DNA of 64,000 bases from Victivallis lenta (GTDB lineage Bacteria; Verrucomicrobiota; Lentisphaeria; Victivallales; Victivallaceae), in assembly GCF_009695545.1 (NCBI RefSeq), contig NZ_VUNS01000006.1, positions 1 to 64,000 of the forward strand, given 5' to 3'. A program made the position numbers and the translations under genes. Every line of letters starts with the position of its first letter. The stretch's first letter is position 1. The notes beneath the pieces were generated by a model, which saw nothing but the letters and a program-made list of their open reading frames with translations, had not been told where the DNA came from and made no database searches. Shown here piece by piece: positions 540 to 36,915 of this stretch.

Positions 540-917
540 GTGATCGAACTTGATTTTGAAAAGTCCGGCGGACTGATTCCGGCAATTGCGCAGGATGCGG
601 ACGACGGCGCCATTCTGATGATGGCTTACATCAACCGCGAGGCGTGGGAGGAGACGCTCTCCACCGGCCGGGCGGTCTATTTTTCGCGCAGCCGCAACAG
701 ATTGTGGCGCAAGGGGGAGGAGTCCGGCAACGTCCAGCTCGTCCGGGAGATTCTGGTCGACTGTGACGGCGATACGGTCGTCTTCAAGGTCGAACAGATC
801 GGAGGGGCCGCCTGCCATACCGGCCACCGCAGCTGCTTTTTCCGCAAAGTCGATTCCGGCGCGCTCGTCGAGATCGCCCCGGTTCTCTTCGATCCCGCCA
901 AAGTGTATAAGAAGTGA
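540..917 (+). CDS. hisI: Phosphoribosyl-AMP cyclohydrolase
   Basis: Third step of histidine biosynthesis: hydrolytic opening of the adenine ring of phosphoribosyl-AMP in the cytoplasm, by a Zn/Mg-dependent dimer. Family hallmarks are visible: [11 protein letters not shown] near the N-terminus, [18 protein letters not shown] in the middle, the metal-binding DCDGD, and [12 protein letters not shown] with the zinc cysteines. I chose the GTG at 540 because GAGG at 530-533 sits 6 bases before it and it gives the usual length (125 aa) beginning VIELDF. An ATG at 432 would add 36 unlike residues. There is no HisE domain and no other his gene nearby. The stop overlaps the next gene, so the two are probably cotranscribed. 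Confidence 0.9.
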
Positions 918-919
918 TC

Positions 920-3040
920 ATGAAAGAGTGGATGGAACAACTCCGGAAGGAGTTTCCGGGCCTGAAAGTCCGGAGTGACGTGCCGTATGCCGAGCTGACC
1001 ACGCTCGGAGTCGGCTCCCGGCTGCCTTACCTCGCGGAAATCGCGGACGAAAAAGAACTGGCGGCGGTTTTGAAGTTCACCGCCTCCGCCGGGATTCCGG
1101 TATTCATCCTCGGCGGCGGCACGAACCTCGCCGGGATGGACGAGCCGTGCCCGAAACTCGGGCTCCGGCTCTCGAAAGCCGGGTTTTCGGGGGCGGAAAA
1201 GGAGGACGGGAAACTCCGGGCCGGTGCGTTCATCCGGCTGCCGGAGCTGGCCCGCAAAGCGGCGGAGGCCGGTTTCGCCGGGCTCGCGCCGCTGGCCGGA
1301 ATTCCCGGTACGCTCGGCGGGGCGCTTCGCATGAATGCCGGAGCTTCGGGCGCCGACATCGGCGGATTCACGGCTGAAGTGACCGGCTTCCGGCTTGACG
1401 GCTCCCCGTTCCGGCAGGAGGGGGCGCAGGTCGTCTGGGGGTATCGCAGCAGCTCGATTCCGGAGGATGTTTTCATCACCGGCGCGCTTCTGTCGCTGCC
1501 CGCCGGAGAGCCCGCTGCGGAGCTGGCGGCGATTGAGGCCGAAGTGCTCGAACGCCGCCGCCGGGAGCCCTCCGGCCGCAGCGCGGGGTGTGCGTTCCGG
1601 AACGTGTCGCCGATGGACCCCGCCGGGCGTCTCATCGACGAGTGCGGGTTGAAAGGCTGCCGGATCGGCGGCGTGAAGGTCGCTGCCGAACATGCGAATT
1701 ATGTGGTCAATACCGGCAATGCGAGCGAAGCGGAGTATGTCGAACTTCTCTCCGCCGTGCGCCGCGCCGTGGCCGAGCGGCACGGCTTCTATCTGCGGCC
1801 GGAGGTGAAATTCCTGAATCCGGAGTCGGAGAAGAAGGTGCTTGCCGCAGCGGAGCCGCCGAAGGTGAACGTCCTTTACGGCGGTTCGTCGAGCGAGCGG
1901 GAGATTTCACTCATGAGCGGCCGCGCCGTGGCCGACGCTTTGCGCAATGCCGGATTTTCCGTCGTTCTGACCGATGTGACGGAGTGCCGGCTTTACCCGG
2001 AGATGCTGGAGGCGGACGTGGTCTATCCCGTGCTGCATGGCGGCTACGGCGAGGACGGCCGGATTCAGAAGATTTTCGAGGAGAACAACCTGCGTTTTGT
2101 CGGTTCCGGCAGCGCCGCGAGCTTGCTCCTGATGGACAAAATCGCGAGCAAGCGGCTGATGGACCGCTTCGGCATCCCGACCGCGAAGTGGGCGGTGGTT
2201 TCCGGGCGGGAGCGGCAGTTTCCGGAGGAACTGAAACTGCCGGTGATCCTGAAGGCCCCGATGGAGGGATCGACGATCGGCATTGTGAAGGTCGAGACGG
2301 AGGCGGAGTGGGAGAAGGCGCTCGACGACGAACTCAGGCTCGCCCCCGAAATTCTGGTCGAGGAGTACGTCCGCGGGATTGAGATCACCGTGCCGATCGT
2401 GAACGGCCGGATTCTGCCGGCGATCGAAATCAAAAGTCCGCACGGCTTCTACAATTACGATGCGAAGTATGTTTACAAAGACGGACACACGGAGTATTTC
2501 TGCCCGGTCGTTTCCCTGTCCGGCGAGGTGGTGCGGAAGGCGTCGGAGTATGCGCAGCTGCTCTATCTCGGCGCCGGGAGCCGCGACATCCTGCGGGTCG
2601 ATTTCATCGTCGGGGCCGACGATATTCCGTATATGCTCGAAGGGAATTCGCTGCCCGGCTGCACGGCGACAAGCCTGGTGCCGAAGGCGTCGAAGGTCTC
2701 CGGCATCAGCTTTGAACGGATGACCTCGGGCCTGGTCTACGCTGCGATGAAGCGTCCGCTGGTCCGCTCCGGGGCCGGCCCGGCTGCGGAGCCGGCGGCG
2801 TTGCCGGCGCTGCGTCCGTCCCGGCCCGGCGCGGCGCCGAATCCGGCGCTGCTCAGGCTTTGCCGCTGGATGTTCCGGATCGCGCTTGTGCTCTGCGCGA
2901 TTCCGATTCTGGCCGTCGGTTTTCAGGGGCTGCTCGCCGGGATATCCGGCGCATGGGTCATGATTGTGAACGGACTTTTTCTGCTCTGTGCGGAGTTCAT
3001 TTTCAAATGGTTCAATTTACTGGAGAGAAAAACGAAATGA
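920..3040 (+). CDS. murB-ddl: MurB-Ddl fusion: UDP-MurNAc dehydrogenase joined to D-Ala-D-Ala ligase, with membrane tail
   Basis: A 706-residue protein covering two peptidoglycan precursor steps. Residues 1-300 are MurB (NADPH/FAD reduction of UDP-GlcNAc-enolpyruvate): GGGTN at 65-69, GIPGTLGG at 127-134, catalytic Tyr175 in YRSS, Cys224 in GCAFRN at the proton-donor position (Ser in E. coli), and Glu295 in LRPEV. Residues 316-612 are an ATP-grasp D-Ala-D-Ala ligase: EISLMSG, HGGYGEDG at 373-380, LKAPMEGSTIG, RVDF and EGNSLPG. A Pro/Ala linker (615-645) leads to two predicted membrane helices (651-672, 675-695), which would tether it to the inner membrane. A GTG at 914 overlaps the hisI stop, but the ATG at 920 is equally good. 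Neither has a strong ribosome site. The last four bases overlap the next start. Confidence 0.93.
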   Translation: MKEWMEQLRKEFPGLKVRSDVPYAELTTLGVGSRLPYLAEIADEKELAAVLKFTASAGIPVFILGGGTNLAGMDEPCPKLGLRLSKAGFSGAEKEDGKLRAGAFIRLPELARKAAEAGFAGLAPLAGIPGTLGGALRMNAGASGADIGGFTAEVTGFRLDGSPFRQEGAQVVWGYRSSSIPEDVFITGALLSLPAGEPAAELAAIEAEVLERRRREPSGRSAGCAFRNVSPMDPAGRLIDECGLKGCRIGGVKVAAEHANYVVNTGNASEAEYVELLSAVRRAVAERHGFYLRPEVKFLNPESEKKVLAAAEPPKVNVLYGGSSSEREISLMSGRAVADALRNAGFSVVLTDVTECRLYPEMLEADVVYPVLHGGYGEDGRIQKIFEENNLRFVGSGSAASLLLMDKIASKRLMDRFGIPTAKWAVVSGRERQFPEELKLPVILKAPMEGSTIGIVKVETEAEWEKALDDELRLAPEILVEEYVRGIEITVPIVNGRILPAIEIKSPHGFYNYDAKYVYKDGHTEYFCPVVSLSGEVVRKASEYAQLLYLGAGSRDILRVDFIVGADDIPYMLEGNSLPGCTATSLVPKASKVSGISFERMTSGLVYAAMKRPLVRSGAGPAAEPAALPALRPSRPGAAPNPALLRLCRWMFRIALVLCAIPILAVGFQGLLAGISGAWVMIVNGLFLLCAEFIFKWFNLLERKTK

Positions 3041-7139: not shown

Positions 7140-7167
7140 TTGACTTTACTGGAATTTACGCTATAAT
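7140..7167 (+). promoter_or_regulatory. Strong sigma-70 promoter of the polysaccharide operon
   Basis: TTGACT (7140-7145), a 16-base spacer, TATAAT (7162-7167). This predicts a transcript start near 7174 and a leader of about 570 bases before the first gene at 7742. No inverted repeats were seen flanking it, so there is no sign of the invertible promoters known from Bacteroides capsule loci. Confidence 0.75.
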
Positions 7168-7270
7168 ATTAATCTCGAAGAAAATTAACAGGGAACAAGG
7201 GAACGATCGAGTGATGATTTCTGCAGCGATGCCGTCCATGGTATTTTTGTGTTTCCGTTCCCGGGAAACG

Positions 7271-7314
7271 ATTGCGGATTCATCCGCAATACTTGATGAC
7301 GCCAGTCATCAAGT
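7271..7314 (+). repeat. Two tandem perfect hairpins in the leader
   Basis: ATTGCGGAT (7271-7279) pairs with ATCCGCAAT (7282-7290). Directly abutting it, ACTTGATGAC (7291-7300) pairs with GTCATCAAGT (7305-7314) across a 4-base loop. Neither is followed by a T-run, so they look like pause or recognition structures rather than simple terminators. Confidence 0.65.
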
Positions 7315-7322
7315 CGAATTTT

Positions 7323-7346
7323 CAAGCAAGCAAGCAAGCAAGCAAG
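7323..7346 (+). repeat. (CAAG)6 tetranucleotide tract
   Basis: Six perfect copies of CAAG directly after the two hairpins. Pure tetranucleotide tracts change copy number by slipped-strand mispairing, so leader length could vary between cells. Confidence 0.8.
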
Positions 7347-7514
7347 TTGCATGCCAATGCACAGCATCTCATTCTGATTTTCTGATTTCTTTTTCCGCGA
7401 TCTGGAGCGGGACTTTGTCCTGCCCGGATTTCCGGGACGAATATAAAAATTTCCGGTTTTGCGCCGAAGCAGGTTCTCTTGTGCCCGCTCCGGCGTTTTG
7501 CTATGCCAGGCACA

Positions 7515-7557
7515 GACAGCCGCGAATTTCAGCTTTGATCTGAAGTCCGCGGCTGTC
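7515..7557 (+). repeat. Nested hairpin in the leader
   Basis: Outer stem GACAGCCGCG (7515-7524) with CGCGGCTGTC (7548-7557), perfect over 10 bp. Inner stem TTCAG (7528-7532) with CTGAA (7540-7544). It lies about 185 bases before the antiterminator gene, and only a short GTTT follows. It is a candidate attenuator or pause site. Confidence 0.6.
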
Positions 7558-7741
7558 CGTGTTTAGCGAAATAGTTGATAAAGAAGGATCAATAGAGAAA
7601 AGTTGATTCCTTATGGGGCGGCTCTTTGGGCACGACCGGGATGGTCGGCACTGGTTCCGTTTCGGCCGAATATTTGAAGCAGGCCACTCTTTGAGAAAAA
7701 GGATATTTTTCTCGAGGAGTACCGGAGGTGTATCGATATCT

Positions 7742-8311
7742 ATGAGATTTGAACCCAGAAAGATCGTCATAACCGAGGATGAAAACTCTTTGTGGTATCC
7801 GCTGAGAACAGTTCCCCGGCATGAAATAAAGCTGTATCGCCAGCTTGAAGAAAAAGGGATTCCGGTTTATTTGCCGGTTATGCCGGCAGTAAAAGTTCAT
7901 CACGTCTGCTACAAAACAAATTCTTATCGTTACGAAGATGAAGTTTTGCGTCCTATGCTGCCGTCCTACGTTTTTGCGCGTCTTGATTGCACCCAACGGC
8001 AGTCTGTATGGAGAACCAACTCCGTCCGAGCGCTTTTGGATGTTCCCAAAGTTCAGCAGGCATCTTTTGCGGAGGAGCTGCGGGGCTTGCAAGTCATGGA
8101 AGAATTATCATTTCATACTAAAGTGGAATACAAAAAAGAGATCGCGGTCAATGACCGGTTTGTGATTGAAGAACCGCGTCAGTTTGAAGGTTCGTACGGT
8201 TATTTGGTTGAAAGGCGGAAACGTTTCCTGTGGGTTATCAAACTCGAGATTATTGGCGGCTGCGTCACTGCTGAAATTGATCCGAGACAATATAAGTTTA
8301 CCAAAGTATAG
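7742..8311 (+). CDS. NusG-paralogue transcription antiterminator (RfaH/UpxY/LoaP type)
   Basis: 189 aa. The N-terminal NGN domain starts WYPLRTVPRHEIKLYRQLEE and continues through LPSYVFARLD; the C-terminal half (about 130-189; VNDRFVIEEPRQFEGSYGYLVE) corresponds to the KOW domain. Specialised NusG paralogues of this size typically sit first in capsule or O-antigen operons. They ride with RNA polymerase to suppress termination, often after recruitment in the leader. The ATG at 7742 begins the domain directly; GGAGG at 7724-7728 is rather far (13 bases), so initiation may be weak. It is first gene of a very long unidirectional operon. Its lower GC than downstream genes may indicate separate ancestry. 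Confidence 0.85.
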   Translation: MRFEPRKIVITEDENSLWYPLRTVPRHEIKLYRQLEEKGIPVYLPVMPAVKVHHVCYKTNSYRYEDEVLRPMLPSYVFARLDCTQRQSVWRTNSVRALLDVPKVQQASFAEELRGLQVMEELSFHTKVEYKKEIAVNDRFVIEEPRQFEGSYGYLVERRKRFLWVIKLEIIGGCVTAEIDPRQYKFTKV

Positions 8312-36303: not shown

Positions 36304-36915
36304 ATGCGGTTCGTGCAAGTCAGACACTGGAAACCGGAGGAGATTATACAGCACATCATGGCGCGGAATGGGGTGGAACCGCTGAATTCTTACTATTATG
36401 CAACAAAATACCCCAGCGTATACGCCGCAGCCACTCGTCTTTTCGGTTCATGGGAAGATACCATCACTGCGTGCGGGCTTGATTACAACCTGATCCGCAA
36501 ATACAAACGCTGGAGCAAAACGGCTGTGATCAATCAGATTCGCAAGCTGCATCAGGAGAATCAGCCGATTTCATCGCAAGCGGTTCAGCACAATCATAAA
36601 AGTCTCTATATGGCGGCGATCAAACGGTTCCGCTGCTGGAGACGTGCCGTCGAAGCCGCCGGGATCGATTATCGGCAGATTAAGCTTCGCCGCAATCTGA
36701 ACGAAACGGAAATCCGCCGGCTGATTTCTGAACTTCATCAGCGGCAGGTGAATCTTTCCTACACCAGTATGCGCCGTGATTATCAGTATCTGCTTGCGGC
36801 AGCAAGCAAAAAAATCGGTGATGGGAGCTGGGCATGCGCTCGTCTCCGGTGCGGAATCATGACCAATTACCGGCTTAAAAAGCCGCACACGGAAGATGGG
36901 AAAAAACGTAGTTGA
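36304..36915 (+). CDS. Homing-endonuclease-associated helical-repeat protein without nuclease domain
   Basis: 203 aa built from about three copies of a 55-60 residue helical unit with the pattern W-x-I-x-L-x(10-20)-Y-x(3)-A-x(2)-FGSW-x(2)-A-x(3)-AGIDY. Copies: residues 9-60 (LFGSWEDTITACGLDY), 68-122 (RFRCWRRAVEAAGIDY) and a degenerate third copy. This matches the homing endonuclease associated (HNH_repeat) family, thought to bind DNA. No HNH, GIY-YIG or other catalytic motif is present. AGGGAG precedes the ATG. Composition is AT-richer than the neighbours, consistent with transfer. Confidence 0.7.
   Translation: MRFVQVRHWKPEEIIQHIMARNGVEPLNSYYYATKYPSVYAAATRLFGSWEDTITACGLDYNLIRKYKRWSKTAVINQIRKLHQENQPISSQAVQHNHKSLYMAAIKRFRCWRRAVEAAGIDYRQIKLRRNLNETEIRRLISELHQRQVNLSYTSMRRDYQYLLAAASKKIGDGSWACARLRCGIMTNYRLKKPHTEDGKKRS

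Follow-up and report, generated by a model that had tools for sequence, protein, structure and literature searches.

The closest described systems to the locus reported here are UpxY in Bacteroides, RfaH with its ops element in E. coli and LoaP with the dfn leader hairpin in Bacillus. In the account of Saba et al. 2024, UpxY is said to read the non-template strand and the DNA upstream while the polymerase pauses, with help from hairpins in the nascent RNA. The T6 base of ops is the one flipped out by RfaH, and in the E. coli O-antigen JUMPStart a hairpin (CTCTGG...CCAGGG) stands directly before GCGGTAGCGTG, the same layout as the one found here. RfaH also requires a C3:G8 hairpin in the non-template strand (PMC5995543), while LoaP reads a UNCG-type hairpin and is not known to use a DNA word (PMC12691694). 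A 2020 survey described the recruitment modes of operon-internal NusG paralogues as unknown (PMC7593976), and our literature search found no paper combining Lentisphaerae, NusG and RfaH.

Here we analyse the leader of such a paralogue in the gut bacterium Victivallis lenta, contained in a 64,000-nt stretch of DNA that we refer to as the window. We propose, with a probability of roughly two in three, that the 3' end of this leader is a cis loading site for the NusG paralogue whose gene follows, where a nascent hairpin and an ops-like pause recruit the factor to its own operon.

A structured leader before a NusG paralogue and a glycan locus

An earlier note on this DNA had described a strong promoter and a structured leader of about 570 nt with two abutting hairpins, a tetranucleotide tract and a nested hairpin, all before a NusG-paralogue gene at the head of a long locus. 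We confirm this observation. The promoter is also kept in both close relatives (L033 and L034), with transcription expected to start near 7174, and the 568-nt leader folds more stably than dinucleotide shuffles (z = -6.8; 0/100 as good). The abutting hairpins are perfect inverted repeats of 9 bp (7271-7279/7282-7290) and 10 bp (7291-7300/7305-7314), and the CAAG tract consists of five units. This tract could be a slippage-prone spot in the Victivallis lenta strain.

Table 1. Features of the leader and of the locus behind it (positions in the window)
Feature	Position	Strand	Remarks
Sigma-70-type promoter TTGACT-16-TATAAT	7140-7167	+	11/12 letters; identity 71-86% across three species
Two abutting perfect hairpins	7271-7314	+	Identity 61-77% across three species
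CAAG tetranucleotide tract	7323-7342	+	Not conserved; identity 41-66% across three species
Long nested hairpin	7511-7561	+	Arms 7511-7532/7540-7561, 86% complementary
Conserved leader block, non-coding by codon-position test	7577-7741	+	Last 165 nt of leader; three-species comparison
P1 stem-loop AAGGAUCAAU/GUUGAUUCCUU	7584-7612	+	Same predicted fold in three species
P2 stem-loop GGGGCGG.../CCGUUUC, inner CGACC/GGUCG	7615-7663	+	Same predicted fold in three species
P3 GGCC/GGCC, weak	7664-7685	+	Predicted fold
P4 hairpin with 3' arm UUUUUCUCGAGGAGU (15 bp in the window), proposed to act in pausing/recruitment	7686-7720	+	Folding z -5.3
Ops-like word ACC-GGA-GGT-G with a GGA-loop mini-hairpin; pause predicted at T7729/G7730	7721-7730	+	Abuts P4
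Shine-Dalgarno GGAGGTG, inside the ops-like word	7724-7730	+	11 nt before ATG
NusG-family paralogue (UpxY/RfaH-like), 189 aa, NGN + KOW	7742-8311	+	PF02357, 40.1 bits
Polysaccharide/glycan cluster, presumed regulated operon	8312-33863	+	Sugar-nucleotide enzymes, glycosyltransferases, flippase, polymerase

The regulator matches the UpxY model NF033644 over its full length (53.9 bits, E 2e-14), below the cut-off of 100, and reaches 22.7 bits with the curated RfaH model TIGR01955, far short of its cut-off of 144.5 bits. An AlphaFold2 model (pLDDT about 80) predicts an NGN domain and a beta-barrel KOW, with fold switching possible, and Foldseek matches the regulator to NusG and to RfaH in an ops-paused complex; a sequence search of the PDB with the protein gave no match. 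It is the one NusG paralogue besides core nusG in the genome (5.5 Mb, 78 contigs), so the within-genome comparison of such leaders suggested by the earlier note has no second leader to draw on. The gene after it resembles an epimerase, the scanned neighbours include no match to a regulator family and nothing that looks like UpxZ, and the glycan cluster continues for about 26 kb, to ~33.9 kb. Elsewhere in the window, 914-3040 holds a single 708-aa frame joining a MurB C-terminal domain to D-Ala-D-Ala ligase domains, a MurB-Ddl fusion, and just behind the glycan cluster 36304-36915 encodes a protein matching a homing-endonuclease-associated HNH repeat.

Selection on the 3' block of the leader

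A close-relative search of genome contigs returned two loci only, and the three-way comparison accordingly comprises the window, L033 and L034, whose regulators are 87% and 83% identical to that of the window. Across the three species identity is 55-60% at 7347-7510, rises to 87-93% at 7577-7683 and is 81-82% at 7684-7720 and 82-86% at 7721-7741. The regulator's coding DNA is 83-86% identical and its third codon positions 68-73%, so that neighbouring synonymous sites show three to four times the divergence of the leader block. Because the identity of the block is high relative to the rest of the leader and to these third positions, we place the strong selection in the final 165 nt (7577-7741), and not in the hairpin pair.

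The constraint on 7577-7683 does not serve a peptide, since differences in the only open frame of the block are spread evenly over the codon positions (3/3/2 and 4/3/3). We likewise rejected ORF 7613-8311 as an N-terminal extension of the regulator: its frame is broken in L033, and its changes are even over the codon positions. In all three species the predicted fold runs P1, P2, P3 and the long hairpin P4, followed directly by ACCGGAGGTG. No covariation was found in P1-P3 within the three-sequence alignment, and Rfam scans at gathering thresholds and at E 10 gave nothing credible, only chance matches. The stretch 7577-7683 is thus a 107-nt structured block that evolves more slowly than coding DNA and has no Rfam match; P1-P3 are not accounted for by loading alone.

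A covarying hairpin followed by an ops-like word

A covariance model trained on the three leaders (R1) was run against 120 genomes. Besides the training leaders and a self-complementary echo, its single further match (L057) lies directly 5' of a NusG paralogue of 52% identity from a different family, and R1 matches occur only before this NusG paralogue. With L057, L058 and L059, whose regulators are 52%, 48% and 39-42% identical to that of the window, the Victivallales set comprises six leaders. In these, 65/66 cells of P4 are paired (98.5%), and 4 pairs have both partners changed. Neither the pairing nor the covariation score was attained in any of 500 shuffles, and slid versions paired at 53-74%. 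The P4 loop is GGATA in the window and variable among relatives.

The words that follow P4, placed by eye in Victivallales, read in order ACCGGAGGTG, GCCGGAGGTG, ACCGGAGGTG, GGGCGGCGCGTG, GGCGGGAGCGTG and GGCGGAGCGTG. The fifth (L058) is one letter off E. coli ops, GGCGGTAGCGTG, and the sixth differs from it by one deletion; in ops letters matched, L058 and L059 reach 11/12 and L057 10/12. The word of the window is the most diverged from the 12-nt ops, matching 8/12 with two single-base deletions and no T6, and the ACC/GGT pairing of its mini-hairpin is a prediction. When the earlier note saw no clear ops sequence here, it was right for the window taken by itself, but three relatives carry clearer forms.

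The element has a single strong match in every one of the six Victivallales genomes, located in the leader of that genome's regulator, and searches with the element models found no strong trans targets in the genome. We infer that the regulator acts in cis on the operon it heads. Together with the predicted beta-barrel KOW, this cis element agrees with a preprint that links RfaH-like proteins of the beta-only type to target operons in their vicinity (PMC13015549).

Recurrence across the class

A class-wide search brought in about 19-20 more homologues, 30-38% identical, from a second, independent family of the class (f21). Among these, 17 have an upstream hairpin with a 3' arm mostly ending in TCGAGGGG, followed by GC-GRYA-GC and then T and G. 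Read in the register of a four-base loop, the inner pair of the word is present in 16/17 and the outer pair in 14/17. The outer mini-stem pairing was reached in 23/10000 column shuffles, and it includes G-C to A-T changes in two members, which the tree places as sisters. Over the Victivallales and f21 elements together, the hairpin ends 0-5 nt before the word in 23/23 (summed-energy z -7.7 against dinucleotide shuffles). The elements are mostly 5-30 nt from the start codon, and ~60-400 nt in L050, L051, L054 and L065. In L065 the element stands ~360-440 nt before its gene, unlike most members.

In a leave-one-out profile search with the 17 f21 elements, the true site ranked first in 16/17, with L056 not recovered. 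Over 18 genomes, 17/18 best matches of the sequence-only model R2 precede such genes. These are mostly training members, and therefore what informs is the scarcity of other matches. R2 also picked up the left-out L065 and, weakly (E 0.017), L058, which belongs to Victivallales. R2 gave no match to the window, and R3 none to the f21 loci, so we draw the link between the Victivallales and f21 elements from their layout, the regulator clade and the L058 bridge (E 0.017). Weak R3 matches in G053, G120, G149 and G195 and the R2 match L083 do not lie beside such genes and were taken as chance.

Regulators with a hairpin-word leader form one clade (SH-aLRT 99), apart from another Victivallales clade, and the glycan loci that they head differ in gene content. 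Two or three paralogues are present in several f21 genomes, and most of these have their own element. L070, basal in the clade, has no convincing element and no hairpin-word leader; it carries an ops-like TTGCGTTAGCA within its own first codons. The second Victivallales clade of NusG paralogues (L006-L032, L042 and L044) lacks the hairpin-ops leader, and its members often stand directly behind another gene, judged by eye to encode the C-terminus of a DciA/DUF721-like protein. We discarded the more distant paralogues (L006-L032 and others) as a leader comparison: they belong mostly to a separate clade, and their upstream sequence is not comparable because the end of a directly preceding gene often runs into the leader region.

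Proposed mechanism and alternatives

Most likely, the paralogue recognises a site at 7686-7730 that acts in cis and combines an RNA hairpin with an ops-like word. During transcription of the leader, P4 would form inside the RNA exit channel or immediately beyond it. The polymerase would meanwhile stand at the ops-like word ~9-10 nt further on, pausing near T7729. The exposed non-template strand could then make the small hairpin ACC-GGA-GGT, and the paralogue may read this mini-hairpin together with P4, and perhaps also the conserved P1-P3 RNA. Once bound, the factor would stay on the polymerase and lend it processivity over the 26 kb of the glycan operon. The overlap of the word with the Shine-Dalgarno sequence and with the beginning of the gene for the factor itself probably ties loading to ribosome recruitment and to autogenous control. 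We infer pausing, protein binding, antitermination and ribosome coupling from the comparative record. The interpretation in the earlier note is therefore partly supported: the leader very likely carries the loading signal, and a hairpin is part of it, but the signal appears to be an ops variant joined to an RNA hairpin and not a wholly new one.

The overlap of the word with the ribosome site makes translational control the main rival, in which P4 and the ACC-GGA-GGT mini-hairpin would gate the regulator's Shine-Dalgarno sequence, with no polymerase pause or loading. The mini-hairpin does include GGAGGTG, and the element usually lies close to the start codon; yet the distant elements of L050, L051, L054 and L065, the lack of a Shine-Dalgarno sequence in several f21 words and the recurrence of letters that belong to the ops pause signal, not to a ribosome site, make translational autoregulation unlikely. 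It is improbable that a ligand-sensing, riboswitch-like RNA (P1-P3) controls the operon and that the paralogue is incidental to the conservation of its leader. Such an RNA would fit a block at 7577-7683 that surpasses coding DNA in conservation across three species and has no Rfam family beyond chance even at E 10, but P1-P3 show no compensatory changes, the block is found only before this paralogue, and it is unrecognisable in L058 and L059, where the P4-word pair persists.

The earlier note had looked further upstream, to the hairpin pair at 7271-7314 as a possible signal, and had also pointed out the tetranucleotide tract. The low identities of both (Table 1) speak against either as the signal, as do the disruption of hairpin 2 in L033 and the absence of the CAAG tract from L033 and L034. 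A wider version, in which the pair and the hairpin at 7511-7561 serve for recognition or form an attenuator overridden by the paralogue, can point to perfect stems and to the persistence of 7511-7561 as a hairpin in two relatives although its sequence identity is 55-71%. We nevertheless hold it to be very improbable, given that the pair is poorly conserved, that the T tract 3' of 7511-7561 is weak and makes no good terminator tract, and that homologues beyond the trio have only the 3' element in common. The conservation might, finally, mean no more than that a cassette of leader and gene has recently spread horizontally, a view that draws on regulators 83-87% identical between two different genera with differing downstream genes. 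The third-position comparison contradicts it: recent transfer alone is insufficient because within one and the same cassette the divergence of adjacent synonymous sites is three to four times higher (68-73% identical against 87-93% for the leader block), and the layout recurs in a distant family. We regard mere recent spread as highly improbable.

Beyond the cis loading site itself, we entertain as possible, though doubtful, that Lentisphaeria use a distinct two-part loading signal of a nascent RNA hairpin and a non-template DNA mini-hairpin without a flipped T, set on the regulator's own ribosome site, so that one pause would load both the elongation factor and the first ribosome, and that in Victivallis the P1-P3 RNA, 107 nt of a new type evolving more slowly than coding DNA, would gate loading.

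Comparison with known systems

The comparative data provide a concrete candidate site for a whole clade of operon-encoded NusG paralogues, in which hairpin and word stay together while the sequences of both drift, and they suggest that ops-type recruitment extends beyond the proteobacterial RfaH lineage. The best reading of the site is as a variant of RfaH/ops and UpxY recruitment that is new in Lentisphaeria.

With E. coli RfaH/ops, the locus has in common a NusG paralogue, long glycan operons, a pause-type word with a mini-hairpin (GC-GGTA-GC) and an RNA hairpin right before that word. RfaH differs in acting in trans on unlinked operons, whereas Victivallales have one strong cis site per genome, and in its autoinhibitory alpha-helical C-terminal domain, where a beta-barrel KOW is predicted here. 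Moreover, the word here lies at the regulator's own start codon, and the Victivallis loop is GGA, without T6. Bacillus LoaP is similar as a NusG paralogue that uses a leader RNA hairpin, but the P4 loop, GGATA in the window and variable, is not of the UNCG type, and a pause-type word follows P4.

Bacteroides UpxY provides the closest NCBIfam model and resembles the present regulators in its cis, autogenous setting: as with UpxY, the regulator is the first gene of a polysaccharide operon in the window and its relatives, and presumably serves that operon. In contrast to UpxY, we saw no invertible promoter at this locus and no UpxZ-like gene among the scanned neighbours, the phylum is a different one, and word and hairpin are conserved across a class. 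The layout of hairpin, then word, agrees with the reported recruitment of UpxY by a paused polymerase together with a nascent hairpin, and we treat this comparison as a lead.
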